46,456 nucleotides of DNA from Armatimonadota bacterium (GTDB lineage: Bacteria; Armatimonadota; DTGP01; JAKQQT01): NCBI GenBank assembly GCA_036504095.1, contig DASXVS010000056.1, positions 1 through 46,456 on the forward strand, in the 5' to 3' direction. Every line of letters begins with the position of its first letter. Positions within the stretch are counted from its first letter, which is position 1. The notes under the pieces were generated by a model, which was not told the DNA's origin, did not search any database, and saw only the letters and a list, made by a program, of their open reading frames with translations. This document shows positions 2,696 to 17,733 of the stretch, piece after piece. Both the position numbers and the translations under genes were made by a program.

Positions 2696-3790
2696 ATGAT
2701 CGCCGAACCGAATATCGCGCTCGCGGAACTACACCTGGACGACTTGCTGTCATACGCCATCCAGCATCGCGCCAGCGACCTTCACCTGACGGCAAACCTG
2801 CCGCCGATGGTTCGCGTTGACGGCAGATTACAGCGCTCCCCGTGGGACCACCTGCGGCCGAACGATATCCAGCGGCTGCTGTACGACATTCTGACGGGCG
2901 AGCAGATCCAGCGTTTCGAAGCGACTAACGAGCTCGATTTCTCCTACTGGATCGGAGAAGAGGCGCGTTTTCGCGGGAACATGTACCGGCAAAGGGGCTC
3001 GGTTGGCGCCGCTCTCCGCGCGATCCCGGTGAAGATTCCCTCGATGACCGAGCTGCATCTGCCCCGCATTCTGGAGGACCTGGCGAGCCTCCCAAGCGGA
3101 CTGGTGCTGATTACGGGGCCAACGGGAAGCGGCAAATCCACCACCCTCGCCTGTTTGATCGACATGATCAACTCAGACCGCGATTGCCACGTGATGACGG
3201 TTGAAGACCCGATCGAATATATCCACAAGCACCGCAAGAGCATGGTGAACCAGCGCGAACTTGGCACCGACACGAACTCGTTCGGCAACGCCCTCCGCGC
3301 CGCCTTGCGCGAAGACCCGGACGTTCTCCTCATCGGCGAAATGCGAGACCTTGAGACGATTCAGACCGCGCTCACCATGGCGGAAACAGGGCACCTCGTC
3401 TTCGCAACACTGCACACACGAAGCGCGGCACAGACAATCGACCGAATCGTTGACGTCTTTCCGTCTCATCAGCAGTCTCAGATCCGGACGCAACTCGCAT
3501 CCGGTCTGGAAGCGGTTGTGGGCCAGCAGTTGTGCTCCAAAGTGGGCGGCGGGCGCGTGGCCGCGTGCGAGGTTATGATGGCCTCCAGCGCGGTGCGCAA
3601 CCTGATCCGCGAGGGGAAGTCGTTCCAGATCCCGAGCGTCATCGAGACGAGTTCGCGCGTGGGGATGCAGACGATGGATAAAGCGCTTTCGGAATTGTAT
3701 CGCTCCGGCCAGATCACTCTGGATGAAGCGATGAGCCGCACCCTGGACCGGGACGCGTTGAAACGCCTGCTCGGCGGCGGGATGTACTGA
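2696..3790 (+). CDS. pilT: Type IV pilus retraction ATPase PilT
   Basis: Cytoplasmic ATPase that depolymerises pili for twitching motility. The 364-aa product has the PilT order of motifs: N-terminal PAS-like half with the ASDLHLT signature, Walker A GPTGSGKSTT, Asp box TVEDPIEYIH, Walker B DVLLIGEMRD, His box TLHTRSAAQT, and the C-terminal AVRNLIREGK motif that is diagnostic for retraction motors. It lacks the zinc tetracysteine of the upstream PilB. I place the start at ATG 2696 (MIAEPNIALAEL) because AGGAG (2684-2688) lies 7 bases before it; an in-frame ATG at 2681 overlaps that site. It is probably co-transcribed with pilB, so extension and retraction motors are made together. Confidence 0.95.
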   Translation: MIAEPNIALAELHLDDLLSYAIQHRASDLHLTANLPPMVRVDGRLQRSPWDHLRPNDIQRLLYDILTGEQIQRFEATNELDFSYWIGEEARFRGNMYRQRGSVGAALRAIPVKIPSMTELHLPRILEDLASLPSGLVLITGPTGSGKSTTLACLIDMINSDRDCHVMTVEDPIEYIHKHRKSMVNQRELGTDTNSFGNALRAALREDPDVLLIGEMRDLETIQTALTMAETGHLVFATLHTRSAAQTIDRIVDVFPSHQQSQIRTQLASGLEAVVGQQLCSKVGGGRVAACEVMMASSAVRNLIREGKSFQIPSVIETSSRVGMQTMDKALSELYRSGQITLDEAMSRTLDRDALKRLLGGGMY

Positions 3791-3890
3791 GGTTCGGGGC
3801 TGAGGGCCGAGATGCGAGGGCTGAGGGGCTGTGCGCACCACCTTCGCCATCCCGGCCCTCAGCCCTTTCCTCTCAGCCCTATCCTCTCAC
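3791..3890. repeat. Heptad-periodic palindromic intergenic element A
   Basis: Between the convergent pilT and GH4 genes the DNA repeats every 7 bases: from 3791 the units read GGTTCGG, GGCTGAG, GGCCGAG, ATGCGAG, GGCTGAG. The right half is the complementary series with CTCAGCC units. A perfect 12-bp inverted repeat (3797-3808 with 3854-3865) would fold the whole spacer into a hairpin, so it may act as a two-way transcription terminator. It belongs with the elements at 5188, 6003 and 7302. Confidence 0.65.
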
Positions 3891-5176: not shown

Positions 5177-5187
5177 AATGGGATCAA

Positions 5188-5320
5188 GTTTCGAGTTTCG
5201 AGTTCCTAGTTCCGGGTTTCGGGTTTCTGGTTTCGGGTTTCGGGTTTCGGGTTCCGTGTTCCGGGTTCAGGGTTCCCAGTTTTGGGTGCCGGGTCTCGGA
5301 ACTTGGGACTAGGGACTCGA
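5188..5320. repeat. Degenerate heptamer array, 19 units, consensus GTTTCGG
   Basis: Exactly 19 consecutive 7-base units can be read from 5188 to 5320. The clearest are GTTTCGA (twice), GTTCCTA, GTTCCGG, GTTTCGG (several), GTTCCGT and GTTCAGG, drifting to GACTAGG and GACTCGA at the end. The first 26 bases and the reverse complement of the last 26 are similar, so the array can fold back on itself. It abuts the start codon of the GH4 gene. It resembles in architecture the short tandemly repeated heptanucleotides (STRR) known from cyanobacteria, with different sequence. Confidence 0.85.
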
Positions 5321-5617
5321 AACCTACTCCGTCACTTTGATTGTAGTTCGCAAATGGGGTGGTTGGCCCGATGAAACGACGTGGCGCCGCTGGTGATGCC
5401 TGTGCGGGTTTCCGGCATGACGACGACGCGGTCAGCATTCCGGGGCAACAGGCGCCAAACAAAACGTGGGGATATTGGCTTTGTTCATGGTCCCGGTAAC
5501 ATTCTTTGCGAAGGGGCCGGACACTGTGTTTCGGCACGCCTGGGTGATTACCGAAAGTCCTCGCGCCCGGGTGGGCGCAGAAAGAGAACGGTCAGAGGGA
5601 TGAACCAAGGAACCTTG
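5321..5617. other. Spacer without a convincing gene
   Basis: I see no supported gene between the heptamer array and the small membrane protein. Reading frames that cross it have no ribosome site and no recognisable protein character. It should hold the promoter of the membrane protein gene; I could not pick out a clear one. Confidence 0.4.
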
Positions 5618-5917
5618 ATGGCGATCGCGTTTTGGATCCTCGCGGTGGCGCTGTTGATCACTGTCGTTTCGGCGTTTGCCGCCGCGGTGCCTCACATCCG
5701 CAGCAAAGAGCCGGACGTGCCGGGTACAATGGCGGCGGATTTCCTTCCCGGCTTCGCGCTGATGATGCTGGCGCTGCTGGCGCCCGGCGGCCGGGGAATG
5801 ACCGTGCAGACGCTCGCGCTCTTCACGATTGCATCCGGCGTCACGATGTACGCGGCGATACGGTTCGGGTCTCTCTCCCATACGAGCTCGGAGAAGAACG
5901 ATCCCGACCGGAAGTAG
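5618..5917 (+). CDS. Small integral membrane protein
   Basis: A 99-aa protein of unknown function. I choose ATG 5618 because AAGGA lies 6 bases upstream; an in-frame ATG at 5600 would add MNQGTL. Three hydrophobic stretches are visible: AIAFWILAVALLITVVSAFA (1-22), FLPGFALMMLALLA (about 48-62) and TLALFTIASGVTMYAA (about 73-88), ending in a charged tail (SSEKNDPDRK). This suits a three-helix inner-membrane protein. A strong hairpin follows 54 bases after the stop, so it is probably a single-gene unit. Confidence 0.55.
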   Translation: MAIAFWILAVALLITVVSAFAAAVPHIRSKEPDVPGTMAADFLPGFALMMLALLAPGGRGMTVQTLALFTIASGVTMYAAIRFGSLSHTSSEKNDPDRK

Positions 5918-5970: not shown

Positions 5971-6003
5971 CGGTCCCGGCCCTTGTAAGGAGGGCCGGGG
6001 CCG
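5971..6003 (+). terminator. Rho-independent terminator after the membrane protein gene
   Basis: Arms CGGTCCCGGCCCT and AGGGCCGGGGCCG pair over 13 positions with one G-T wobble around a 7-base loop, and are followed by TTT. The hairpin lies 54 bases after the stop codon at 5917. Confidence 0.7.
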
Positions 6004-6067
6004 TTTCGGGTTTCAGGTGGCGGGTGTCGGCTGTCTGGCCGGAGCCCGGCGGCTGACACCCGCAACC
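6003..6067. repeat. Heptad-periodic palindromic intergenic element C
   Basis: From 6003 the sequence runs in 7-base units: GTTTCGG, GTTTCAG, GTGGCGG, GTGTCGG, then falls back through GCTGACA and CCCGCAA. The halves 6016-6032 and 6051-6067 pair at 15 of 17 positions. The first two units match the consensus of the large array at 5188. It sits directly after the stop codon of the minus-strand gene ending at 6072, where it could serve as that gene's terminator. Confidence 0.6.
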
Positions 6068-6071
6068 TGGT

Positions 6072-7178
6072 CTATTCTTCGCGCGAGGCGCTGTTGCCCT
6101 TTTCCTCGGTTGCGGCCGGCAAATCTAGTTGGTCGCTGACCTTCCACCCCGGAGGCAAATAGCATTGGAGGTCCGGAAATACCTGCATCGCACTCCAGAC
6201 ACTTGGGGCGTTGTCTGGGTGTACGTATAGCGTGCCTCTGAGCCTGCAGCAAGACCAGTCCCACGAGTGCGGCACCATCACCAGACCCGAGATTCGCGAC
6301 GATTTACCACTACGGAACAGACCGTTCGTTTGGCGGTGAGCGATTCCGCCGCCGCCAGGCCGAAGACGATCGAACGTGAACACCTCATCGCCGTAAAGCA
6401 CGTTCGCCATCGTTTCTGGCCGGATCATCAGTTCCCAAACCGCCTGAAGAACCACCAGGTTCACCTGGCTGCGCCCTGGCGGGCGGGTGAATGTCTTGCC
6501 GGCTTTGCTCAGATCAGTGTGGACGGCTTTCCTCCTCACCGCTGTATTGATCTCACGCATCAACCCATTGGACGCGCTATACGCATCGATCACGCCAACT
6601 TCCATATGGCTGAGACGACTGCATTCACTGACACCATATTTAACAATGGGATTCACGGGGTCAGGCCAGCAATATGACAGAATATCCAAATCGTGTGTCG
6701 GTGGAGCCGGGCATAGGCTTCCAACTTCAGCTTTCAGGTGGGTCAGGAATCGATCCGCGTCTTGCCGCTGGATCCTATCCGATAGCCAGTAGTGCAACAA
6801 CCAAGGCATTGATATGAATTGCAATCGCGCTTCGCACCTGCGTTGGAAATGGTCCTTTGCATCCCGACTCTCAAGCGAGCGGAGGCGTTTGACCTGGATG
6901 TCCAATCGCGTTCCGTCGGCAAAGCACCGGAAGTCAGGCGGTCGACTCTCGGTGTCCGGTTCGTACTCGACATTCGTGATCGATTCGTTAGCGAGTAATT
7001 CGCAGCACACCCCTGCCTCTAGCAGGACATCCATAGCTGCCTCGCCGCTCCGAGTGATCACGTTTTGGACAAGCCGATCGAATCCCGCCTTGTGGATTGC
7101 ATTGATGAGGGAGTTCAAGGATCCCAACCGTACGGGATCATCCACTATGCCGGGGAAATCGGTGAACGAACGATGCAT
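6072..7178 (-). CDS. Putative PD-(D/E)XK-fold nuclease, uncharacterised
   Basis: A 368-aa protein I do not recognise as a named family. The N-terminal part carries a pattern that fits a restriction-endonuclease-like core: E60 in a helix (CELLANE), then P81-D82 in RPPDFRCF, then D93-I-Q95-V-K97 in RLDIQVKRL. This is the Glu / Pro-Asp / (D,E,Q)-x-Lys layout of PD-(D/E)XK enzymes, in the QxK variant. No signal peptide or membrane segment is seen, so it is cytoplasmic. The rest (100-355) is rich in Trp and Cys without a clear motif. The last residues EEKGNSASREE copy the end of ppdK at the DNA level. No good ribosome site precedes ATG 7178. Codon use is less GC-biased than the neighbours, in keeping with recent acquisition. 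Role in defence is inference only. Confidence 0.5.
   Translation of the reverse strand: MHRSFTDFPGIVDDPVRLGSLNSLINAIHKAGFDRLVQNVITRSGEAAMDVLLEAGVCCELLANESITNVEYEPDTESRPPDFRCFADGTRLDIQVKRLRSLESRDAKDHFQRRCEARLQFISMPWLLHYWLSDRIQRQDADRFLTHLKAEVGSLCPAPPTHDLDILSYCWPDPVNPIVKYGVSECSRLSHMEVGVIDAYSASNGLMREINTAVRRKAVHTDLSKAGKTFTRPPGRSQVNLVVLQAVWELMIRPETMANVLYGDEVFTFDRLRPGGGGIAHRQTNGLFRSGKSSRISGLVMVPHSWDWSCCRLRGTLYVHPDNAPSVWSAMQVFPDLQCYLPPGWKVSDQLDLPAATEEKGNSASREE
6079..6108. repeat. 30-bp direct repeat, copy 1 (end of nuclease-like gene)
   Basis: Identical over 30 bases to 7360-7389, at the 3' end of ppdK, 1281 bp away and in the same orientation. The TCTA that includes the stop codon is also shared at both places after a 4-base difference. 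In both genes the repeat is read in the same frame as EEKGNSASR, just before the stop. Confidence 0.95.
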
Positions 7179-7252
7179 TCGGTGAAGTCAGGCATTTGGC
7201 ATCGGTGCTCCATTGTTGGAATCAACGTAGCAAACAGCCCAGCACAATCACA

Positions 7253-7287
7253 AACGGCGGGCGGACCGAGTTGGTCCGCCCGCCGTT
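7253..7287. terminator. Strong hairpin, probable bidirectional terminator
   Basis: Perfect 15-bp arms (7253-7267 and 7273-7287) close a 5-base loop GAGTT. The plus strand continues CTTT and the minus strand TTTGTGATTGTG, so it can end transcripts from ppdK leftward before the nuclease-like gene. It lies inside the segment bounded by the 30-bp direct repeats. Confidence 0.75.
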
Positions 7288-7301
7288 CTTTGGAAGACTG
7301 A

Positions 7302-7350
7302 GGCTGGAAGTTGGAGGTTGGAATCCAGCTTCCAACCTCCAACTTCTCAC
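7302..7350. repeat. Heptad-periodic palindromic intergenic element D
   Basis: Seven-base units GGCTGGA, AGTTGGA, GGTTGGA, a turn, then TTCCAAC, CTCCAAC, TTCTCAC. Positions 7307-7323 and 7330-7346 form a perfect 17-bp inverted repeat with a 6-base loop. It starts 3 bases after the ppdK stop codon, in the same relation to ppdK as element C has to the nuclease-like gene. Confidence 0.75.
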
Positions 7351-7352
7351 TT

Positions 7353-10025
7353 CTACTTGTCGCGCGAGGCGCTGTTGCCCTTTTCCTCGATCGCCGCCTG
7401 GGCCGCCGCGAGGCGGGCTACCGGGATGCGCTTCGGGGAGCAAGAGACGTAGGTGAGGCCCAGCTTGTGGCAGAACTTCACGCTGTCCGGCTCGCCGCCG
7501 TGCTCGCCGCAGATACCGAGCTTGATCTTCGGGTTCACCTTCTTGGCGTCTTCAACGCAGATCTTCATCAGGCGGCCGATGCCCTTCTGGTCGATGGTGT
7601 CGGTCGGGTCGTTCTTAAAGATCTGCTTGTCGATGTACAGCGGCAGGAACTTGCCGGCGTCGTCGCGTGAGATGCCGTAGCCCATCTGCGTCAGGTCGTT
7701 GGTGCCGAAGGAGAAGAACTGGGCTTCCTTGGCGATCTCGTCCGCGGTCAGGGCGGCGCGCGGGATCTCGATCATCGTGCCGATCATGTAGTCGACCTCA
7801 ATGCCCTCCGCCTTCATGGTCTTCTTCGCGACCTTGATGAGCTGGGTCTTGAGGTAGGTCAACTCGGTCACGGTGGCGATCAGCGGGATCATGATCTCGG
7901 GATGAACGTCGATACCGGCCTTCTTGACCTCGCAGGCCGCGCCGATGATGGCGGCGATCTGCATGTTCACGATCTGCGGGAAGTAGATGCTCAGGCGGCA
8001 GCCGCGCAGGCCCAGCATTGGGTTCTGCTCGTGCATGTCTTCAACAGCGGCCAGAAGTTTGCTGGCCTTGGCCATAGCGGTTCCGCTGGCATTGCTGTCC
8101 ATCATCTGGCGCATTTCCATCTTCACGGTGTCGGCGTGGGGGAGGAACTCGTGAAGCGGCGGGTCGATGAGACGGATGGTAACCGGCTTGCCGTTCATGG
8201 CGCGGAAGATGCCTTCGAAATCCTCGCGCTGAAGCGGGAGGAGCTTGTCGATGGCGGTCTGGCGGCCGGCGTCATCTTCGGCGAGGATCATGTCCTGCAC
8301 GAGAGCGGCGCGGTCTCCAAGGAACATATGCTCCGTGCGGCAAAGGCCGATGCCTTCGGCGCCCAGGGCGATGGCGTCCAGAGCGTGCTCCGGCGTATCG
8401 GCGTTGGCGCGAACGCCAAGCTTGCGATACTCGTCGCACCAGCCCATGAAGGTGCCGAAATCACCGGTCATCGTGGCGGGTTCGGTTTCCAGTTCGGTGT
8501 TGTACACCAGGCCGAGCGTGCCGTCAAGCGTGATGATGTCGCCTTCCTTCACAACCACGCCGTTAGCCGTGAACTGGCGGGCGGTTTCGTCGATCTTCAC
8601 CGCGCCGCAGCCGCAGACCGTGGGGATTCCGTACTGGCGGGCTATAAGAGCCGCGTGGCTCGTGCGGCCGCCGAGGCTGGTGAGGACGCCCTTGGACGCG
8701 AGCATTCCACCCAGGTCGTCCGGGTTGGTCTCCTTGCGGACGAGGATGACTTTCTTGCCTTCGGCCGCGTAGGCGATGGCGGTTGCGGCGTCCAGGGCCA
8801 CGTGGCCGGAGGCGCCGCCGGGGCCGGCGTTCAGGCCCTTGGCGATTTCCTTGATGCCCTTCGCGCTTTTGATGCGCGGGTGGAGCAACTGCTCGAGGGC
8901 TTCCGGCGGAACGCGGACCAGGGCCTGTTCCTTCGTGATGAGGCCTTCGTTCACCTGATCGATGGCGATCTTCACCGCGGCAACGCCCGTGCGCTTGCCG
9001 GAGCGGCACTGCAGGATGAAGAGACGACCCTTCTCGATGGTGAACTCGATGTCCTGCATGTCGTGGTAATGAAGCTCGAGGTTGCGCGCGATGTCCGCGA
9101 ACTGCTTGTAGATGGCGGGGAACTCACTCTCGAGCTCGGCGATTTCTTCCGGGGTCCGCACGCCGGCGACCACGTCCTCGCCCTGGGCGTTCTTCAGGAA
9201 CTCGCCGAACAGCTTGTTCTCGCCGTTGGCGGCGTTGCGGGTGAAGGCCACGCCCGTGCCGCAGTCATCGCCCATATTTCCAAAGACCATGGACTGGATG
9301 TTCACGGCGGTGCCCAGGTCGTGGGCGATCTTCTCGCGGTTGCGGTAGATGACGGCGCGCTCGTTGTTCCAGGACTTGAACACGGCGACTACCGCGAGTT
9401 CCAACTGCGTGAGCGGGTTCGTCGGGAAGTCATCGCCCGTCACGTCCTTGAAGTACTTCTTGTAGAGCTCACACAGATCCTTCAGGCCGGCCGCGTCAAC
9501 TTCGGTATCCACCTGGGCGCCGGTCTTGGCTTTCAGGGCGTCGAAGATGACTTCGAAATGGTGTTTGGCGAGCTTGGGATAGTCGCTGGAAAGGACGATG
9601 TCGCTGAACATCATGAGGAAGCGGCGATACGCGTCGTAAGCGAATCGCTCGTTGCCGGTTGCGGCGATGATGCCCTTGAGGGAGTCTTCGTTCAGGCCGA
9701 GGTTGAGGACGGTATCCATCATTCCCGGCATGGAGAACTTGGCGCCGGAGCGGACGGACACCAGAAGCGGGTTTTTCGCGTCACCCAGCTTCTTGCCCAT
9801 GTCCTTCTCGATGACGGCAAGCGCCTTCATAACGTCGTCCCACAGTCCGTCGGGCAAGCGCCCGAGCTTCGTGTACTCGTTGCAGGCTTCGGTTGTGATC
9901 GTAAATCCGGCGGGCACCGGCAGGCCGATATTGGTCATTTCGGCCAGGTTGGCGCCCTTGCCTCCGAGGAGGTCACGCATCGAGGCGTTGCCCTCTTTGA
10001 AAAGATAAACTTGCTTCTTAGACAT
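7353..10025 (-). CDS. ppdK: Pyruvate, phosphate dikinase
   Basis: Interconverts pyruvate, ATP and phosphate with phosphoenolpyruvate, AMP and pyrophosphate in central carbon metabolism. The start MSKKQVYLFKEG at ATG 10025 follows AGGAGA about 10 bases upstream and gives 890 aa, the normal size. Domains in order: N-terminal ATP-grasp (KGANLAEM, SVRSGAKFSMPGMMDT), central swivelling phosphohistidine domain with the catalytic His in GGRTSHAALIARQYG, and the C-terminal PEP/pyruvate barrel with SFGTNDLTQMGYG and the reactive Cys in LGICGEHGGEP. A longer frame to 10157 lacks support. The final codons (EEKGNSASRDK) lie in a 30-bp repeat also found at the end of the neighbouring nuclease-like gene. 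A palindromic heptad element and a GC-rich terminator follow. Confidence 0.97.
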   Translation of the reverse strand: MSKKQVYLFKEGNASMRDLLGGKGANLAEMTNIGLPVPAGFTITTEACNEYTKLGRLPDGLWDDVMKALAVIEKDMGKKLGDAKNPLLVSVRSGAKFSMPGMMDTVLNLGLNEDSLKGIIAATGNERFAYDAYRRFLMMFSDIVLSSDYPKLAKHHFEVIFDALKAKTGAQVDTEVDAAGLKDLCELYKKYFKDVTGDDFPTNPLTQLELAVVAVFKSWNNERAVIYRNREKIAHDLGTAVNIQSMVFGNMGDDCGTGVAFTRNAANGENKLFGEFLKNAQGEDVVAGVRTPEEIAELESEFPAIYKQFADIARNLELHYHDMQDIEFTIEKGRLFILQCRSGKRTGVAAVKIAIDQVNEGLITKEQALVRVPPEALEQLLHPRIKSAKGIKEIAKGLNAGPGGASGHVALDAATAIAYAAEGKKVILVRKETNPDDLGGMLASKGVLTSLGGRTSHAALIARQYGIPTVCGCGAVKIDETARQFTANGVVVKEGDIITLDGTLGLVYNTELETEPATMTGDFGTFMGWCDEYRKLGVRANADTPEHALDAIALGAEGIGLCRTEHMFLGDRAALVQDMILAEDDAGRQTAIDKLLPLQREDFEGIFRAMNGKPVTIRLIDPPLHEFLPHADTVKMEMRQMMDSNASGTAMAKASKLLAAVEDMHEQNPMLGLRGCRLSIYFPQIVNMQIAAIIGAACEVKKAGIDVHPEIMIPLIATVTELTYLKTQLIKVAKKTMKAEGIEVDYMIGTMIEIPRAALTADEIAKEAQFFSFGTNDLTQMGYGISRDDAGKFLPLYIDKQIFKNDPTDTIDQKGIGRLMKICVEDAKKVNPKIKLGICGEHGGEPDSVKFCHKLGLTYVSCSPKRIPVARLAAAQAAIEEKGNSASRDK
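7360..7389. repeat. 30-bp direct repeat, copy 2 (end of ppdK)
   Basis: Partner of 6079-6108, identical over 30 bases. This copy encodes the extreme C-terminus of pyruvate phosphate dikinase, just beyond its folded barrel, so it is likely the original copy and the other the duplicate. Confidence 0.95.
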
Positions 10026-10262
10026 TACTGACTCTTCTCCTGATAGTGCGGGATGTCCGCGGGGGAGCCACCGGCGTGGATAACCGGCCTCCCCGATTGC
10101 CATTGATTGGAAATTCAAACCCATGTATGATAGACCCCCTGACGGGGGCAGGGGCAATGGGTGTGCAGAGACTCATAAGTGGCGAGGGGGCGCTCCGAGG
10201 AAGAGGGAGGCAGCGAACGGGCGACTTCTGCCGCGTTGGCTAAACGCAGGCGGGGGCTGGCA

Positions 10263-10280
10263 GGCCGGCGAAGGCCGGCC
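10263..10280 (-). terminator. Possible terminator of the ABC transporter cluster
   Basis: A 7-bp GC-only stem (GGCCGGC with GCCGGCC) closes a GAAG loop, about 40 bases after the permease stop codon on the minus strand. There is no T-tract, so the call is tentative. Between here and ppdK (10026-10262) I see only a small CCCCC/GGGGG hairpin near 10134-10147. Confidence 0.35.
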
Positions 10281-10319
10281 AATTATCGGCGGCTCGCATC
10301 CAAGCGGAGAATGGTCGAC

Positions 10320-11087
10320 CTACCGAAGCGCCTTCTGGAACGACGTGACCGTGAGCGAGACGAAGACCACGAAGAGCACCGACGATGCCACGAAGCCCTC
10401 CCAGATGGCCGGGTTCGCCCAGTTCGACAGCACCAGCGCGCGAACCCCCTCAATGACGTACGTCACGGGGTTGTAGCCTGCCAGAAGCGCGAACGTCTTC
10501 GGCAGTAGCTGCTTCGGCGCCTGGGAGGTGGTGATGTACAGGAACGGGAATACGAGGATGAACATGGACTGCACGAGCCGGGCGTTCTGGGTCCGCAGCG
10601 CCGCGATCATACTGATGCAACTCCACGCCATGGCGAACAAAATGAGCATTGCGAAGATCGCCACGATCCCAAGAAAACCGGTGTTGAACTTCACGCCGAT
10701 CGCCAGCAGAAGGACCACCACAATCGCTCCCTGTAAGGTCGCCTGTATCGCCACCTCGGTCAGCCGGCCGAGGACGATGGCGAGGCGATGGATGGGCATG
10801 ATCAGCAGTTTTTTGAAGTACCCATTGGTGATGTCCTGCACGAGTTCGATTCCCGCATTGCCCGCAGCGAAGAAGACGGCCGTGAATATGGCAACCGGCG
10901 CAATGAACTGCTTGTAGGAGACGTGGGGAAAGCCCTTCACCTGCGCGAACGCCTGCAGCGACGCCGCATTTACAGCGAAGAAGAAGAGCGGCATGAAGAG
11001 CGACGGCAGCAACGCCAGCATCGGCCGCCAGATCTGCTTTGTACTGCGCACAGACAGGTAGAACCAGTCGGAAAAGAAATCTTTCAT
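10320..11087 (-). CDS. ABC-2 type transporter permease
   Basis: Inner-membrane subunit of a drug, lipid or polysaccharide exporter. From ATG 11087 (MKDFFSDWFYLSVRSTKQI) it has 255 aa, the usual ABC-2 size; an upstream in-frame start at 11135 would overlap the ATPase gene. Six hydrophobic stretches are visible, including LLPSLFMPLFFFAV, PVAIFTAVFFAAGNAGIELV, LGIVAIFAMLILFAMAW and FILVFPFLYITTSQAP, with the FL.GYNPVTYVIEGVR-like segment before the last helix that is typical of the family. It starts 11 bases after the ATPase stop, so the two form one exporter. Substrate is not evident. Confidence 0.88.
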   Translation of the reverse strand: MKDFFSDWFYLSVRSTKQIWRPMLALLPSLFMPLFFFAVNAASLQAFAQVKGFPHVSYKQFIAPVAIFTAVFFAAGNAGIELVQDITNGYFKKLLIMPIHRLAIVLGRLTEVAIQATLQGAIVVVLLLAIGVKFNTGFLGIVAIFAMLILFAMAWSCISMIAALRTQNARLVQSMFILVFPFLYITTSQAPKQLLPKTFALLAGYNPVTYVIEGVRALVLSNWANPAIWEGFVASSVLFVVFVSLTVTSFQKALR

Positions 11088-11097
11088 GGGTTTGTGG

Positions 11098-11886
11098 TTA
11101 CCGGGCGCGCGCATACGGGTCCGGAGCGTTCGCATTGACCTCTTCGTCCGCCAGGTTGCTTCCCGTCGTCTTCAGGAAGACGTCTTCGAGGCTGCTCGCG
11201 TTATGCTCTGCCAGCAGGTGCTGGAGGGTGCCTTCCGTGACGATGCGGCCCTGGTCCATGATCGCGATGCGGTCACAAAGCGCCTCGGCCTCCTCCATAA
11301 AGTGGGTCGTCAGAAAGATGGTCATACCGTCGCGATTCAACTGGCGCAGGTGGCCCCAGATCAGTTGGCGCGCATGCGGGTCGAGGCCGGTTGTCGGCTC
11401 GTCGAGAAACAGGACTTGCGGATTGTGTATGAGCGACAGGGCCAGGTCGAATCGGCGGCGCATTCCCCCCGAATACGTTGATGCGAAGCGCTTGGACACC
11501 TTCTCAAGCTCAACGAGTTTGAGGAGTTTGCGTATCTGGGCGTCGATCTCATGCGGCGGCATGTGGTAGAGGCGGCCATGAAGCCGGAGCATCTCCTCCG
11601 CGGTCGCGGTTTCGTCGAGCCCCACTTCCTGCATCGCGAAGCCGACGCGCTTATAGATCTCGTTCGGGTGTTCGCTGAGGTCGAAACCATCGATGACAAT
11701 GCGTCCGCTCGTCTTTTTGACGAGGTTGACGAGCATGTTCATCGTGGTGGACTTGCCGGCGCCGTTTGGGCCCAGGAAACCGAAGAACTCACCGCGCTCC
11801 ACGGAAAATGACACCCCGTCCACGGCACGCGTACCTGTGGGATAGACCTTCACCAGGTCCTGGACTTCGATGATCTGAGAACTCAT
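11098..11886 (-). CDS. ABC transporter ATP-binding protein (DrrA-like)
   Basis: Nucleotide-binding subunit for the permease encoded just downstream. The 262-aa product has Walker A GPNGAGKST, Q-loop, signature YSGGMRRRFDLALSL, Walker B VLFLDEPTTGLDP and switch His in TTHFMEEAEALCD. The GMRRR signature and the long C-terminal tail after residue 225 suit the drug-export (DRA) branch. AAAAGG precedes ATG 11886. The gene begins 27 bases after the alpha-galactosidase gene, so the exporter probably shares a transcript with the serine hydrolase and glycosidase upstream. Confidence 0.93.
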   Translation of the reverse strand: MSSQIIEVQDLVKVYPTGTRAVDGVSFSVERGEFFGFLGPNGAGKSTTMNMLVNLVKKTSGRIVIDGFDLSEHPNEIYKRVGFAMQEVGLDETATAEEMLRLHGRLYHMPPHEIDAQIRKLLKLVELEKVSKRFASTYSGGMRRRFDLALSLIHNPQVLFLDEPTTGLDPHARQLIWGHLRQLNRDGMTIFLTTHFMEEAEALCDRIAIMDQGRIVTEGTLQHLLAEHNASSLEDVFLKTTGSNLADEEVNANAPDPYARAR

Positions 11887-11913
11887 ACACCTTTTAGCCC
11901 CGATTTGCGGCCG

Positions 11914-13950
11914 TTAGTTCCTTGCGGAGCGCCCAGCAGGCTCCAGTCTGAGTATGGTGCTCTCTGCCGGATCCAGAGCGATCACCGTGGTTCCAGAGGC
12001 ACGCCAGGTGCGTCCGCTCCACAGGTCCGTGACCTGGTACGGACCGCGGAGCAGCCCCGCGCGGGCTAAATCCACACGCTTCGTGGCTCCGTCCTTGCCG
12101 TCGAAATTGAAGATTGCGAGGTAGTGGGCAGCGCGGGATTCGAGCGTCAGGACGTCCGGCGCCTTGCTGCCCGTGTTCCCCTCCAACGGTCGAAACGGGC
12201 GGCCGAGGCGCGCGACGGCATTGATCGCGGGATTCGAGAACCAGGTTTCCGCCAGGCGCTGTCCTTCCGGCTTTGTGAGATCGTCGCCTATCAGGAAGAC
12301 CGTTCCGGCGACGGCTCCGGACGTCACGCGGCTCCGGTTTTCAGCGGCGCTATGCCCCTCCAGAACGAGGTGGTCGGGATCGTTATACGCGTAAAGGCGT
12401 CCGCTCATCCACCAGCCGTACGCCGCCGAATTCATCACGTATTCCGTCTCGCCGATGCCGCCGAAACTGTCGCAGGACACGCGCCGGGCGTGAGCGTACC
12501 GGTATGGGAACAGCGGCGCAATCGACTCGCTGACGAACATCGTCCACCCGATCCGGTTCAACAGGTAGCGCATGCCGCTGTTGTACGCCTGGATTCCGGT
12601 CTGGACGGACCTGTCGAAATGAACGCCGTTCGCCGAGCCGCCTTCAAGCGCGCCGTGGGTGAGAAAATCGAGCTTGATGTAGTCGAAACCGAGGGTCTTG
12701 AACCGGTCGATGAAGTGGTCGATGCGGCCGCGTGTCCCGGGGTGGGTCGGATCGAGCGCCATGCCGCCATCCATGGAAATGGGTGAGCCCGCCTTGGTCC
12801 GCGTCACGATGTCGCTGTACACGTACTTCGTGCCCTCGACGCGTTGCGAGAGGTTTTTGCCCCAGTAGATGAAGGGCGACCAGTAGATTCCCGCCTTCTG
12901 GCCGTTCGAATGTACGTGGGTTGTGAACTGCTTCAACTCCGCATCGCTCAGGTTGTCCCAGTACGAATCGAGATTGACGTATGTGGCTCCCCGGTTGTTG
13001 AAACCGAGGGGCTGGAGGCGCCGCGCGAGGTAATCGGATGTCCCGGCCGCTTTGGCGTAGTTGAGGCCAGCCTGCACCTTGCCCCAACTGTTCCAACCGA
13101 ACGGCACGCCGCCCGTCCATTTCCGCGCCGGCGCCTCGGCGGCGTTCGCCGCCGCGAAATCCTCCATACCGGCGCGCCAGTCCGAATAGAACCCCACAAG
13201 GACCTTCGGCGAGAGTATGCGGTTCCCCGCCACGGCGCCGTGCGGTTCCACGTCGTGCGTCCCGCCGTCCGCCACGCCGCCAAAGACCCTGAGATCGTTC
13301 AGCCGGCTGCCGCTGCCGGAAAAGGCGACGGCGGTTTTCCAGGTATCGTGCGTCACGGAACCCACCACGATGCCGTTCCGGCTGGCGTTATCGTAGAACG
13401 CGCAGACCTCGTAGCTGACGCCGCCGGATTTCCATGGCGATGCATCGTAGCGAGCCCACTTGTCATTGTCGAACGGCACCTGCAGCGCTCGCACATCGAT
13501 ATGTCGAGCGAGCTCCAGCGCGCCGGGCGTGTCGTCCACCAGCGGGGCCATCCAGTTGGAGCGCAGTCCCACGCCGGCGAGTTCAATACGCAGGAGGACC
13601 GAACGACCATCGCGCAGGGTGAACCGCTGCCTCATGGTCGGCAACCCGCTCGCCGTGAGCGTTACAACCGTTTCCGGGCCGTTGGTGGCCGCCATCCGGA
13701 CCCTGTAGTCCTTGCTGGTGAGGTAACGGCCCCCCACTCGGGCGGCGCCGTAGAAACGCGCTATCCTGCCCACCTGGCTCGAGGAGAGACTCGCTATACC
13801 TGTGTGGAGATCGTACTCAAGGCAGATATCTCCGCGGCGAAGCGTGAAAGTTTGCTCTGCCCGTTTCGCGGTGGATGCCGGCGCGGAATCGGCGCGCCCC
13901 GCGAGGAGCGTCACCAGCGCCAGCGTCAAAATGGCTGCGGTCCGCTTCAT
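11914..13950 (-). CDS. Exported alpha-galactosidase-like glycosidase (clan GH-D)
   Basis: A 678-aa secreted enzyme with a signal peptide (LTLALVTLLAGRADSA). An N-terminal beta-rich domain (about 35-270) precedes a (beta/alpha)8 barrel that opens with GWNSWG (285-290) and carries the nucleophile Asp428 in YIKLDFLTHG; this strand motif is that of clan GH-D (GH27/GH36). A C-terminal beta-sandwich ends the protein, with YLAIFNFDGKDG and a final DPAESTILRLEP typical of the clan. It should release alpha-linked galactose or a related sugar from plant-type glycans, outside the cytoplasm. ATG 13950 overlaps the stop of the serine hydrolase gene by 4 bases (ATGA), indicating coupled translation. Confidence 0.85.
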   Translation of the reverse strand: MKRTAAILTLALVTLLAGRADSAPASTAKRAEQTFTLRRGDICLEYDLHTGIASLSSSQVGRIARFYGAARVGGRYLTSKDYRVRMAATNGPETVVTLTASGLPTMRQRFTLRDGRSVLLRIELAGVGLRSNWMAPLVDDTPGALELARHIDVRALQVPFDNDKWARYDASPWKSGGVSYEVCAFYDNASRNGIVVGSVTHDTWKTAVAFSGSGSRLNDLRVFGGVADGGTHDVEPHGAVAGNRILSPKVLVGFYSDWRAGMEDFAAANAAEAPARKWTGGVPFGWNSWGKVQAGLNYAKAAGTSDYLARRLQPLGFNNRGATYVNLDSYWDNLSDAELKQFTTHVHSNGQKAGIYWSPFIYWGKNLSQRVEGTKYVYSDIVTRTKAGSPISMDGGMALDPTHPGTRGRIDHFIDRFKTLGFDYIKLDFLTHGALEGGSANGVHFDRSVQTGIQAYNSGMRYLLNRIGWTMFVSESIAPLFPYRYAHARRVSCDSFGGIGETEYVMNSAAYGWWMSGRLYAYNDPDHLVLEGHSAAENRSRVTSGAVAGTVFLIGDDLTKPEGQRLAETWFSNPAINAVARLGRPFRPLEGNTGSKAPDVLTLESRAAHYLAIFNFDGKDGATKRVDLARAGLLRGPYQVTDLWSGRTWRASGTTVIALDPAESTILRLEPAGRSARN

Positions 13951-15038
13951 GGGGTTCGGGAAAGGGGCGCAAGGTCAGGGATGTACCTTGCGGCAATCCC
14001 GCGCGCGATCGAGAACGTGTCGGCGCCGGCCAGGTTGCAGAGCACGATGACACTGAGATGATCTTCGGGGAACCGGAGGATCGTCGAACCAAACCCGGAC
14101 GAATGCGATCCGTTGTGATCCTGGTAGGAGTGGCCTGCCATGCTTCCGATGTCCCAGCCGTATCCGTAGTGGCTCATCGTTCCGTCGTTGAGGCGCGCCG
14201 GGGTCCACATCTCCTTGCGGGTCTCCGTTCGCAGCAGGTGGCCTTTGGAAAGGGCGATGTCCCATTTCGCCAGGTCGCGAACGGTCGAGAGAATCCCCCC
14301 GCCGGGGTAGCCCAGCACCGTCGGCGCTATGTAGTCACCGTTCACCCAGCGTATGCCCTCCATCTTGTAACCCGCAGAGCGGTGCGGCACAATTTCCGAC
14401 CACGAATAGATGCTGGTCTCAGTCATTCCCAACGGCTCGAAGATGCGCTCGCGCAGCCAGTCCCCGTAAGGCTTGCCGGTGACTTTGCGGATGATCATGC
14501 CGACGAGCAGGTAGTTGGTATTGCTGTACTGATACCGGTCGCCGGGCGTGAAGTTGAGGGGCCGGGCCGCCGCCGCTTTCAGCACATCCTCGTCGTCAAC
14601 GTCGAGGCGCAGGCTCTGGGTGGGCTCGTTGATGTAGTCCTTGATGCCGGAAGTATGCGTGAGCAGGTGGCGAACGGTGATGTCCTTCCATGCCGCCGGA
14701 ACGCCATCGAGGTACCTGGAGATCGGATCGTTCACCGAGACCCGGCCATCCTCCACGAGCATGAGCAGGCCGGCCGCGGTGAAGGACTTGGTCATGGACT
14801 GGATTTGAAACACCGTGTCGGGTGTAACAGAGGTATTCTGCTCCAGGTTGGCGAAGCCGTAGCCGGCGACTTTCGCTATCCTGTCGTTCCGGATAACGGC
14901 GATGGAGACGCCGGGAATGTGGCGGCCCTTCATCTCGGCGCGGACATAATCGTCCACCTTGTCGGCGCGGCAATTGGCGGCGGCAAGCGCGATCCCCGCG
15001 AAAACGAACGCTCCGGCACAAACGAGGGACAGGCGCAT
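13947..15038 (-). CDS. Exported serine hydrolase, class C beta-lactamase/PBP-like fold
   Basis: A 363-aa protein with a signal peptide ending near Ala-Asn-Cys-Arg-Ala-Asp (about 25). It has the three active-site motifs of the beta-lactamase class C / D-alanyl-D-alanine carboxypeptidase fold: Ser81-Met-Thr-Lys84, Tyr171-Ser-Asn173, and HSSGFG near residue 320 in place of the KTG box. The last replacement and lack of resistance context suggest an esterase or peptidase rather than a true beta-lactamase. First gene of the minus-strand cluster that continues with the alpha-galactosidase (4-base overlap) and an ABC exporter. ATG 15038 follows a GGAGG site (in GAGGTATTCCC, with CTGGAGG). Confidence 0.88.
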   Translation of the reverse strand: MRLSLVCAGAFVFAGIALAAANCRADKVDDYVRAEMKGRHIPGVSIAVIRNDRIAKVAGYGFANLEQNTSVTPDTVFQIQSMTKSFTAAGLLMLVEDGRVSVNDPISRYLDGVPAAWKDITVRHLLTHTSGIKDYINEPTQSLRLDVDDEDVLKAAAARPLNFTPGDRYQYSNTNYLLVGMIIRKVTGKPYGDWLRERIFEPLGMTETSIYSWSEIVPHRSAGYKMEGIRWVNGDYIAPTVLGYPGGGILSTVRDLAKWDIALSKGHLLRTETRKEMWTPARLNDGTMSHYGYGWDIGSMAGHSYQDHNGSHSSGFGSTILRFPEDHLSVIVLCNLAGADTFSIARGIAARYIPDLAPLSRTP

Positions 15039-15240
15039 GGGAATACCTCCAGAAAGCGGCTCACTGCGAATGATGGTGTCGGCTTCGGGCTCCCGAACTC
15101 AAGCGGCGAGCGAAAATGGGTACGCCGCATTTCCGAAGTTGCAGGGCATCGGCCGTACATAATGACCGTGACCGGGGTCTCCGGGCCCCGTCGCGCGCTG
15201 CGCACCGGCACGCGCGTATCTCACAATCGGAGGCGGTACC

Positions 15241-17733
15241 ATGTTGATCTCGGGCGGCTGGGGTATGGGCTGGTTGCTGGCGCTCGCCGCCGTGTTGGCG
15301 CTCGGCGCGATCGGCGGATCCGAAGGCGCCGGGACGCGTGTTGATCAAATCGCGGATAGAACCGCGAAATGGGAGCGCCACGCGGGGCTGCTGACCACAT
15401 GGCATGACCGCGAGGCCGGCCGGATATGGCTGCTTGTCCCACCACCCACCGATCGCGCGGGCACCGTGGGCGTGTTCATCTATGCGGAAAGCCTCAGCAC
15501 CGGAATCGGCAACGTGGCGGTTGGGCTCGACCGCGGCGAAATCGGGCGCACATTCGTCGTCCGCCTGCGCCGCGTCGCGGGCAGACTCCTCTTTGAAGCG
15601 ACGAATACCAGCTTCCAGGCTGTCTCGGAGAACCCGGCCGAACGCGCGTCCGTCTCACAATCGTTTCCGCCATCCATCCTGTGGGCCGGCCCGGTTGAGG
15701 CCGTTGACCGCGATGGTTCGGCGCTTGTGGACATCACGTCATTCATCGTGCGGGATGCCCGTGACGCCACGGCCAAGCTCGCAGACCAGGGGGGATACGC
15801 GCTGGATGCCAATCGCAGCGTTCCGGACCTGGAGAACTGCCTCGCCTTCCCGGACAACCTCGAGTTTGAAGCCATCCTCACGTTCGGATCGCCAAAGCCG
15901 GGGAAGAGCGTTACGGAGACGACGCCCGCACCGCCATCCGTTACGCTCGTCCAGCACCACTCGCTCGTGCGGTTGCCGGATGCCGGATACCGGCCGCGCG
16001 CCTTCGATCCGCGTTGCGGTTCGTACAGCATCCCATTTGTGAACTTCTCTGCGCCGCTTGACGGGCCTCTCGAGGTTCAGCACGTGGAGCGGTTCCGGCT
16101 ACAGAAGGCGGATCCCCTCGCTGAACGCTCGCGGGCAGTGAAGCCGATCGTTTACTACCTCGACCCGGGTGTCCCGGAGCCGATCCGATCGGCACTGCTG
16201 GACGGAGCAAGGTGGTGGGAGAAAGCGTTCGAGGCGGCGGGGTTCATCGATGGTTTCCGCGTGGAGATGCTCCCGGACGGGGTGAATCCGCTGGACGCAC
16301 GCTATAACGTCCTCGAGTGGATACACCGCACGACGCGTGGTTCGTCATTCGGGCGCACAATCACCGATCCCCGAACGGGTGAGATCATCAAGGGGCACGT
16401 CATTCTGGATTCGCAGCGCCTGCGGCAGGTACGCCTCGTTTTCGAAGGGCTCGCCGGCGCGGACAGGACCGGCAGCGGCGCTCCGGACGATCCAATCCAG
16501 CTCGCCTTGAGCCGCATCCGCCAACTCGCGGCGCACGAACTCGGCCACACGCTCGGCTTCGCGCACAACTTCGCGGCCAGTTCAACGCCGGATGGCGGTT
16601 CCGTGATGGACTACCCCGCGCCGCGCGTCGATATCACGCCAGATGGCGATCTCGATTTCACCCACGCATACGGGGTTGGCCTCGGCCCGTGGGACATACA
16701 GGCGGCGCGCTATTCATACACCGAGTTTGCGCCCGGCGCGGAAGAAGCGAACGGATTGCGGGACATCCTGGCTGATTCCGCCAAACGCGGCCTCCTCTTC
16801 ATCGCCGACGGCGATACGCGCGGCGCCGAGTCCGCCAACCCGCGCGCTTCCATGTGGGACAACGGGACGGACCCGGTCAACCAGCTTCAGCACGAGATGC
16901 GCGTTCGTCGGATCGCTTTGGACCGCTTCGGGCAGCACAACGTGAAGCCCGGCACACCGCTCGCGCGCCTCGAGGAGACCCTGGCGCCTGTGTATTTCCA
17001 CCACCGTTACCAGGTAACGGCGGCGCTGAAAGTGATCGCGGGGATCGACCACGGCACCGCGTTCCGCGGTGATCCGGCGCCGGTGGTGCGGATGATTGAC
17101 GCGGATCGGCAAAAGAAAGCCCTGGACGCTCTGCTTGGATGCCTCGCGCCCGCGGAGCTGGACGTGCCGGAGAGCGTCCTCGAACTCCTGGCGCCTCGGC
17201 CGTATGAGTCGGACCGCAACACCGAGATGTTCCCCAGCGCCACGGGGCCGGCCTTCGATGCGTTGGGCGCCGTCCGAAGCGCCGCGGAGATGGTTGTCGC
17301 TGGGCTCCTTAACCCCGAGCGCTGCGCCCGGCTGGTCGATTTCCATCGCCGCCGCACGGATTTGCCCGGCCTCGAAGACATTTTGCACGCATTGACGGCT
17401 TTCGTTTTCGACGATGCAGCCATTGCCCCGCGCCTGGCCGAGGTGCGGCGGGCGACACAGGAGGTCGTTGTTGGCGGGCTCATCAGGTTGTCGGGCAATG
17501 CGACGGCGCCCTTAGCGGTCCGGTCGCGCGTGGACGCCGCGCTGACCCGCCTTCGAAATGACTTGACCGCCGATCCCGGATCCGACGAGACTCAGGCAGC
17601 CTTTAGTGGAACCATTGCCGGCCTCATCGGCCGCCACCTTACCCGCCCGCTCACGGCGTCCCCCGAACCTCCCGCCGCCCCTGTGCCTCCAGCCGGTGCG
17701 CCGCTGGGCTCGTGGGGCGAGGACGCCGTGTAG
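15241..17733 (+). CDS. Zinc-dependent metalloprotease with DUF5117/DUF5118-type architecture
   Basis: An 830-aa exported metallopeptidase. A signal sequence or anchor (GWGMGWLLALAAVLALGAIGG) is followed by the N-terminal beta-rich domain and a metzincin-like catalytic core with the full zinc motif HExxHxxGxxH at 432-442 (HELGHTLGFAH). A downstream SVMDYPAP gives the Met-turn. The order and spacing match the large bacterial zinc-dependent metalloproteases carrying DUF5117 and DUF4953. Substrate is unknown. GGAGG lies 8 bases before ATG 15241. The gene is divergent from the serine hydrolase and ends 7 bases from the convergent esterase gene, with no room for a separate terminator. Confidence 0.9.
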   Translation: MLISGGWGMGWLLALAAVLALGAIGGSEGAGTRVDQIADRTAKWERHAGLLTTWHDREAGRIWLLVPPPTDRAGTVGVFIYAESLSTGIGNVAVGLDRGEIGRTFVVRLRRVAGRLLFEATNTSFQAVSENPAERASVSQSFPPSILWAGPVEAVDRDGSALVDITSFIVRDARDATAKLADQGGYALDANRSVPDLENCLAFPDNLEFEAILTFGSPKPGKSVTETTPAPPSVTLVQHHSLVRLPDAGYRPRAFDPRCGSYSIPFVNFSAPLDGPLEVQHVERFRLQKADPLAERSRAVKPIVYYLDPGVPEPIRSALLDGARWWEKAFEAAGFIDGFRVEMLPDGVNPLDARYNVLEWIHRTTRGSSFGRTITDPRTGEIIKGHVILDSQRLRQVRLVFEGLAGADRTGSGAPDDPIQLALSRIRQLAAHELGHTLGFAHNFAASSTPDGGSVMDYPAPRVDITPDGDLDFTHAYGVGLGPWDIQAARYSYTEFAPGAEEANGLRDILADSAKRGLLFIADGDTRGAESANPRASMWDNGTDPVNQLQHEMRVRRIALDRFGQHNVKPGTPLARLEETLAPVYFHHRYQVTAALKVIAGIDHGTAFRGDPAPVVRMIDADRQKKALDALLGCLAPAELDVPESVLELLAPRPYESDRNTEMFPSATGPAFDALGAVRSAAEMVVAGLLNPERCARLVDFHRRRTDLPGLEDILHALTAFVFDDAAIAPRLAEVRRATQEVVVGGLIRLSGNATAPLAVRSRVDAALTRLRNDLTADPGSDETQAAFSGTIAGLIGRHLTRPLTASPEPPAAPVPPAGAPLGSWGEDAV

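Follow-up and report, generated by a model that had tools for sequence, protein, structure and literature searches.

Why would two unrelated genes end in the same nucleotides? The question is raised by a 46,456-nucleotide stretch of DNA from an Armatimonadota bacterium (GenBank assembly GCA_036504095.1, contig DASXVS010000056.1; the whole stretch is called the window here), in which the gene for pyruvate phosphate dikinase, ppdK, and the gene for a putative nuclease lying behind it share a 3' end. A preliminary description, made from the window's letters without database searches, had seen here a small insertion at a gene end, flanked by target-derived att-like repeats. Our best reading is that the object is an element of a kind already known, an islet resembling a cis-mobilizable element (CIME), with att-like ends at a known site. 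We assign a probability of about 0.6 to its having arisen by site-specific insertion at an attB site in ppdK, the integrase having been lost later or never having been there. In what follows, G000 is the window's own genome, other G codes are comparison genomes and L codes are retrieved loci or records.

A shared gene end and the single gene it encloses

The features on which the argument depends are as follows.

7353–10157, minus strand: ppdK, pyruvate phosphate dikinase; likely start at 10025 (MSKKQVYLF...), open reading frame (ORF) open to 10157
7352–7398, minus strand: proximal copy R1 (attL-like), a 47-bp repeat with the exact 30-mer at 7360–7389; the functional ppdK tail
6071–6117, minus strand: distal copy R2 (attR-like), a 47-bp repeat with the exact 30-mer at 6079–6108; gives the nuclease ORF its C-terminus and stop codon
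6072–7178, minus strand: cargo gene for a 368-aa predicted PD-(D/E)XK nuclease, the last ~14 codons coming from the ppdK tail copy
7387–7406, minus strand: attB-like motif GCGGCCCAGGCGGCGATCGA in the ppdK 3' end, matching GYSGCNCARGCKGCHRTHGA, a motif published from Bacteroidota ppdK, at 19 of 20 positions

The exact 30-bp direct repeat at 6079–6108 and 7360–7389 has a start-to-start spacing of 1281 bp, as the preliminary description had stated, and about 5e-10 such repeats no more than 2 kb apart would be expected by chance anywhere in the window. Over the longer interval (6071–6117 against 7352–7398), 41 of 47 bases agree (87%). Identity at wobble positions, which the same description had stressed, holds within the 30-mer and fails outside it, where the 47 bp contain six differences, two of them synonymous codon changes. 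Both reading frames were found to run through the repeat in the same phase, as had been claimed: ppdK ends in AAIEEKGNSASRDK and the 368-aa ORF in AATEEKGNSASREE, with EEKGNSASR common to the two and the stop codons homologous. The earlier suggestion that the 30-mer be sought elsewhere was followed up in the 4.68-Mb genome with its first 21 bases, allowing up to three mismatches; there was no third copy.

The window ppdK carries the Pfam domains PPDK_N, PEP-utilizers and PEP-utilizers_C, and orthologues are present in 39 of 41 relatives. Because the ppdK products of the nearest relatives end alike, in EEKGGSAQRDK (G001) and EEQGKDVQRDK (G006), the tail is assigned by sequence comparison to ppdK, with the proximal copy (RDK*) as the conserved form. 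A sorting or other peptide tag was rejected, as the preliminary description had preferred, since the tail is an ordinary ppdK C-terminus in the family and the 30-mer is present only twice. In one comparison genome, G033, two similar ppdK copies lie at contig ends (L040 and L042, on C12 and C2), reflecting either duplication or an assembly effect.

Between the repeats the 368-aa gene, which starts approximately 170 bp downstream of the ppdK end, is the only substantial ORF, and no integrase, relaxase or conjugation genes were found there. Nor was an integrase-type gene found beside the repeat, in agreement with the preliminary description. GC content at third codon positions (GC3) is 0.64 in the nuclease gene and 0.78–0.85 in neighbouring genes. 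Searches of Pfam, NCBIfam, PADLOC, PHROGs and PDB sequences gave no match to the 368-aa protein, and searches of plasmids, phages and viral contigs returned nothing. Two homologues were found in the phylum, in G231 (34% identity) and G146 (22%), and a scan of genome contigs added none to the known G231 protein. The G231 homologue begins on the last base of hsdS, itself preceded by an hsdM-type gene, while that of G146 stands alone, adjoining serC. Residues E54, P81-D82, Q95 and K97 (QxK95–97) are invariant across the three proteins, in the PD-(D/E)XK pattern that the preliminary description had proposed. A structure model of low confidence (pLDDT 53) has an order of secondary structure elements that fits the alpha-beta-beta-beta-alpha-beta core, and its best Foldseek matches are the Hjc and RecU Holliday-junction resolvases (E ~0.3). 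The window protein thus resembles PD-(D/E)XK nucleases in the conserved E, PD and QxK and in having a homologue directly behind hsdM-hsdS, but differs from them in lacking any family, defence, phage or PDB sequence match and in the weakness of its model and of the Hjc/RecU fold matches. The low GC3, the PD-(D/E)XK-type residues and the homologue behind hsdM-hsdS suggest that the cargo is probably a horizontally acquired, restriction-like nuclease of foreign origin, which would imply a role in defence. Because the C-terminus of the G231 protein is different, its alignment with the window protein stopping near residue 305, the final ~14 codons of the window gene are taken to be ppdK sequence in frame.

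The locus that holds the G231 homologue (L050, C210, 4057–7990) consists of an hsdM-like gene, hsdS and the homologue in an operon-like row, with no hsdR before the contig ends 1 kb further on. The homologue may replace the restriction subunit in this row.

Each repeat copy is trailed by a hairpin and then by a terminator-like stem:

7307–7346, unstranded: heptad-type hairpin after R1, with a 17-bp perfect stem and related sequences on other contigs
7253–7287, minus strand: terminator-like stem after ppdK, with a 15-bp perfect stem
6014–6069, unstranded: hairpin after R2, with 26-nt arms that are 81% complementary
5971–6003, unstranded: terminator-like stem between R2 and a convergent gene (5381–5917)

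A heptad hairpin after each copy had been part of the preliminary description; the hairpins are indeed present, but heptad-type repeats are widespread in the window genome and hence not specific to the element. Intergenic tandem repeats or hairpins of this type lie at window positions 3790–3890, 5184–5330, 6014–6069 and 7307–7346, with relatives on several other contigs, and recall short tandemly repeated repetitive elements.

The ppdK 3' end as an attachment site

In Bacteroidota, PvCTn-like conjugative transposons target the 20-bp attB GYSGCNCARGCKGCHRTHGA in the ppdK 3' end, leaving imperfect direct repeats as attL and attR and regenerating the stop codon within three residues; restriction-modification cargo is frequent among them (PMC11005914). 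The window insertion is similar in its target gene end, attB motif, imperfect direct repeats, regenerated stop codon and restriction-type cargo. PvCTn-like transposons are, however, large and carry integrase and conjugation genes, whereas the window element measures 1.28 kb, has one gene and neither of those gene classes between its repeats, and belongs to another phylum. The window repeat, and with it R2, starts nine bases inside the attB motif, and the distal tail copy of G174, described below, starts at the same place, on the same codon.

Viral records point to the same site. ppdK was found at the edge of IMG/VR records, with a 493-aa phage integrase (Phage_int_SAM_5) directly after it in L150, L152 and L158; record L151 contains a 26-bp copy of the ppdK tail approximately 57 kb away, in the position expected of attR. 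In all, six Bacteroidota prophage records (L150, L151, L152, L157, L158 and L160) start or end near ppdK, and an integrase directly follows ppdK in the three that were checked.

CIMEs retain att sites, have no recombination genes, occupy the 3' ends of protein genes and form tandem arrays; the classical examples are 1.2–13 kb long with cargo, for instance those of streptococci at the 3' ends of fda, rpsI and rpmG (PMC7563491, PMC5704250). The window element is alike in having flanking att-like repeats derived from the end of the target gene (30 bp exact, 47 bp at 87%), no integrase, relaxase or conjugation genes, and a location at the 3' end of a conserved protein gene, a site used by integrative elements, though all of these users are in another phylum. 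It differs in that the cargo is limited to one or two genes in each case and that no integrative and conjugative element (ICE), integrative and mobilizable element (IME) or integrase was found at the ppdK site in the phylum; its descent from an ICE is hypothetical.

Displaced ppdK tails in other Armatimonadota

The 3' flanks of ppdK from approximately 115 Armatimonadota genomes were each searched for copies of the genome's own ppdK end. Cargo was named by sequence resemblance, with VapBC, VOC, EEP and TspO recognised by eye and family searches made for some genes only. Tail copies bracketing small cargo were found behind ppdK in four further genera. In G174 there is one displaced tail, after a 177-aa gene; in G056 there are two, after VapBC-like and VOC-like genes; G148 also has two, which follow a gene for an EEP-like nuclease and a decayed stretch; and in G019 several displaced ppdK pieces occur with AbiU and HNH genes in between. 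The tail copies of G056, G148 and G019 stand in tandem, and those of G056 and G148 resemble the accretion arrays of CIMEs. As a control in the same flanks, none of 325 other genes was followed by a repeat of its terminal fragment (three full tandem paralogues aside), compared with 4 of 92 ppdK genes (p ~0.002 by hand calculation); the window is one of the four, which makes the figure slightly flattering. PIN domains were found in 5 of 128 ORFs near ppdK and in 0 of 68 far from it, which is no more than suggestive of an enrichment of toxin-antitoxin genes directly behind ppdK.

At the G019 locus (L039, C13:136000–155999), positions 7994–15725 contain AbiU, two pairs of a companion and an HNH gene, XRE and DJ-1 genes, and four ppdK pieces. 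Two of these pieces share a start at -150 in ppdK, and their differences from the gene are almost confined to third codon positions (1, 2 and 8 differences at first, second and third positions in one copy, and 2, 0 and 12 in the other). Because the differences are mostly at third positions, both tails are taken, on their codon pattern, to have once been functional ends.

Several other matches were set aside. The match in G246, where only the terminator stem of ppdK is repeated, between XRE and HNH genes, was rejected as a displaced tail; at this locus (L057) each of two consecutive cassettes (XRE; HNH) between +1 and +2.2 kb ends in the stem, and the ppdK tail has a premature TGA (EEKG*GASRDK). 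Matches of 21–24 bp in G008 and G042 were treated as chance. An orphan ppdK 3' fragment in G120 (L054, C9, 10449–10640) has no upstream gene, lies ~5.5 kb from an integrase gene and is closest, among those compared, to the ppdK of other genera; its geometry does not fit a simple attR.

Congeners with and without the additional DNA were available for two of the genera. A block of HNH, murA and mreB genes starts 75 bp after ppdK in G176 and at +1344 in G174, from the same genus; the extra DNA of G174 comprises the 177-aa gene, the ppdK tail copy and a VOC-like gene, and in G178 a TspO-like gene occupies the corresponding slot. Similarly, what precedes a MarR gene in G057 is a single ppdK tail with a ParDE-like pair; in its congener G056 the same MarR gene is preceded by three tails. 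These pairs are with/without comparisons for the type of event, not for the window locus. The collection holds no congener of the window genome, so that comparison for the exact locus is limited to G001, its nearest and only family relative, in which VapBC-like genes and pyrF follow ppdK and which is uninformative on the empty site. None of the genes flanking the window locus was found behind other ppdK genes.

Origin of the islet and what it means

In the sequence of events that we favour, a small foreign segment with a single gene, for a restriction-like nuclease, would first have entered ppdK by site-specific recombination, at an attachment site in its final ~50 bp that tyrosine-recombinase elements use in Bacteroidota. 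The insertion would have split the end of ppdK, the left edge of the element providing a working tail (R1) and so keeping the enzyme intact, while the host's original tail would have been pushed 1.28 kb downstream to become R2, the present end of the nuclease reading frame. A recombinase would be the agent, and R2 the native copy. The element could be the deletion remnant of a larger one, that is, a CIME, or a mini-element using a recombinase in trans. The window genome has 10 matches to the tyrosine-recombinase family PF00589. An internally deleted or otherwise decayed element is more economical than the trans-mobilised satellite that the preliminary description had entertained, which is possible. 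That description's insertion at a gene end with att-like repeats gains support from the published attB, the integrase-bearing prophages, the start of the repeat within the motif and the congeners without insertions. The G000 and G174 copies also begin at the same codon within the known attB, in keeping with a site-specific event.

Several observations weigh against it. In a motif scan, no integrase was found within approximately 7 kb of ppdK in the ~115 flanks except in G040, and this candidate was judged not to be ppdK-linked, since it appears beside a tRNA gene with moaA between integrase and ppdK. A homologue of the Bacteroidota ppdK integrase was not found in 291 genomes of the phylum, in a search that gave no positive-control signal. 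The starts of the copies vary, lying near the motif in G000, G174, G056 R3 and G148 R2 and 40–120 bp upstream of it in four copies (G148 R3, G056 R2, G019). The proximal ppdK end of G056 seems unreplaced, because its tail and terminator match those of G057 (94% identity up to +56). By BLAST, the copies in G000, G019, G056 and G148 are closest, or tied for closest, to the ppdK of their own genome.

The variable starts and the closeness of copies to their own species' ppdK are also what would be expected of homology-facilitated illegitimate recombination, or 'insertion with long target duplication', an account that requires no recombinase and that we consider possible at well below even odds. 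DNA from a related strain, bringing its own ppdK 3' end and the nuclease gene, would have been joined by a homologous crossover within ppdK on one side and by an illegitimate join in the old tail on the other, and that tail would have remained. The mostly synonymous differences between the G019 tails agree with each having served as a working ppdK end in a related strain; target duplications that are long and variable are known for restriction-modification genes (PMC3031569, PMC1643837), and one-sided homologous plus illegitimate integration is documented (PMC3240628). As cited in PMC3031569, the cases of Nobusato (2000) are alike in having a defence-type gene bracketed by tens of duplicated host bases with no transposase; their targets are various, whereas here it is one gene end with a known attB. 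The repeat expected of such an event is present, and the contrast with congeners comes from G174/G176 and G056/G057, at loci other than the window. This account does not, however, predict that the G000 and G174 copies start on the same codon within a known attB motif, nor does it explain why ppdK alone among the tested genes shows tail repeats. Homing-like self-insertion, in which the nuclease, or HNH enzymes found at the same place elsewhere, would cut ppdK near its 3' end and be copied in during repair, is unlikely. HNH genes do recur here: in G019 they are accompanied by ppdK fragments, in G246 by terminator repeats, and G041 has a decayed companion gene in this place. The bulk of the cargo, however, is of non-nuclease type (VapBC, VOC, TspO), and homologues of the window nuclease sit elsewhere, behind hsdS in G231 and beside serC in G146. 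Least probable is that there was no insertion at all and that a local tandem duplication, a convergent peptide tag or an assembly error produced the repeat. Both copies are within one contig, so that misassembly is conceivable, but their flanks differ, the 30-mer is unique to the locus, the tail is ordinary ppdK sequence in relatives and the cargo differs in composition.

A broader version of site-specific insertion, which we regard as doubtful, is that the ppdK 3' end in Armatimonadota may be a collecting site for integrase-less cassettes of one or two genes (toxin-antitoxin, nucleases, VOC-type), moved in trans by a recombinase encoded elsewhere. Each cassette would end in a ppdK tail and in many cases carry a terminator of its own, the whole forming an integron-like array that uses the end of a host gene as its recombination site.

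In the literature searched, no earlier report of such insertions at ppdK in Armatimonadota was found. The findings extend to a little-studied phylum an attachment site known from gut Bacteroidota: ppdK 3' ends there have repeatedly acquired very small units of cargo, several of them of defence or toxin-antitoxin type, and no integrase comes with them. The findings also raise the question of what agent moves one-gene units into the ppdK site, and displaced ppdK tails provide a simple genomic scar by which such islets can be found and delimited.

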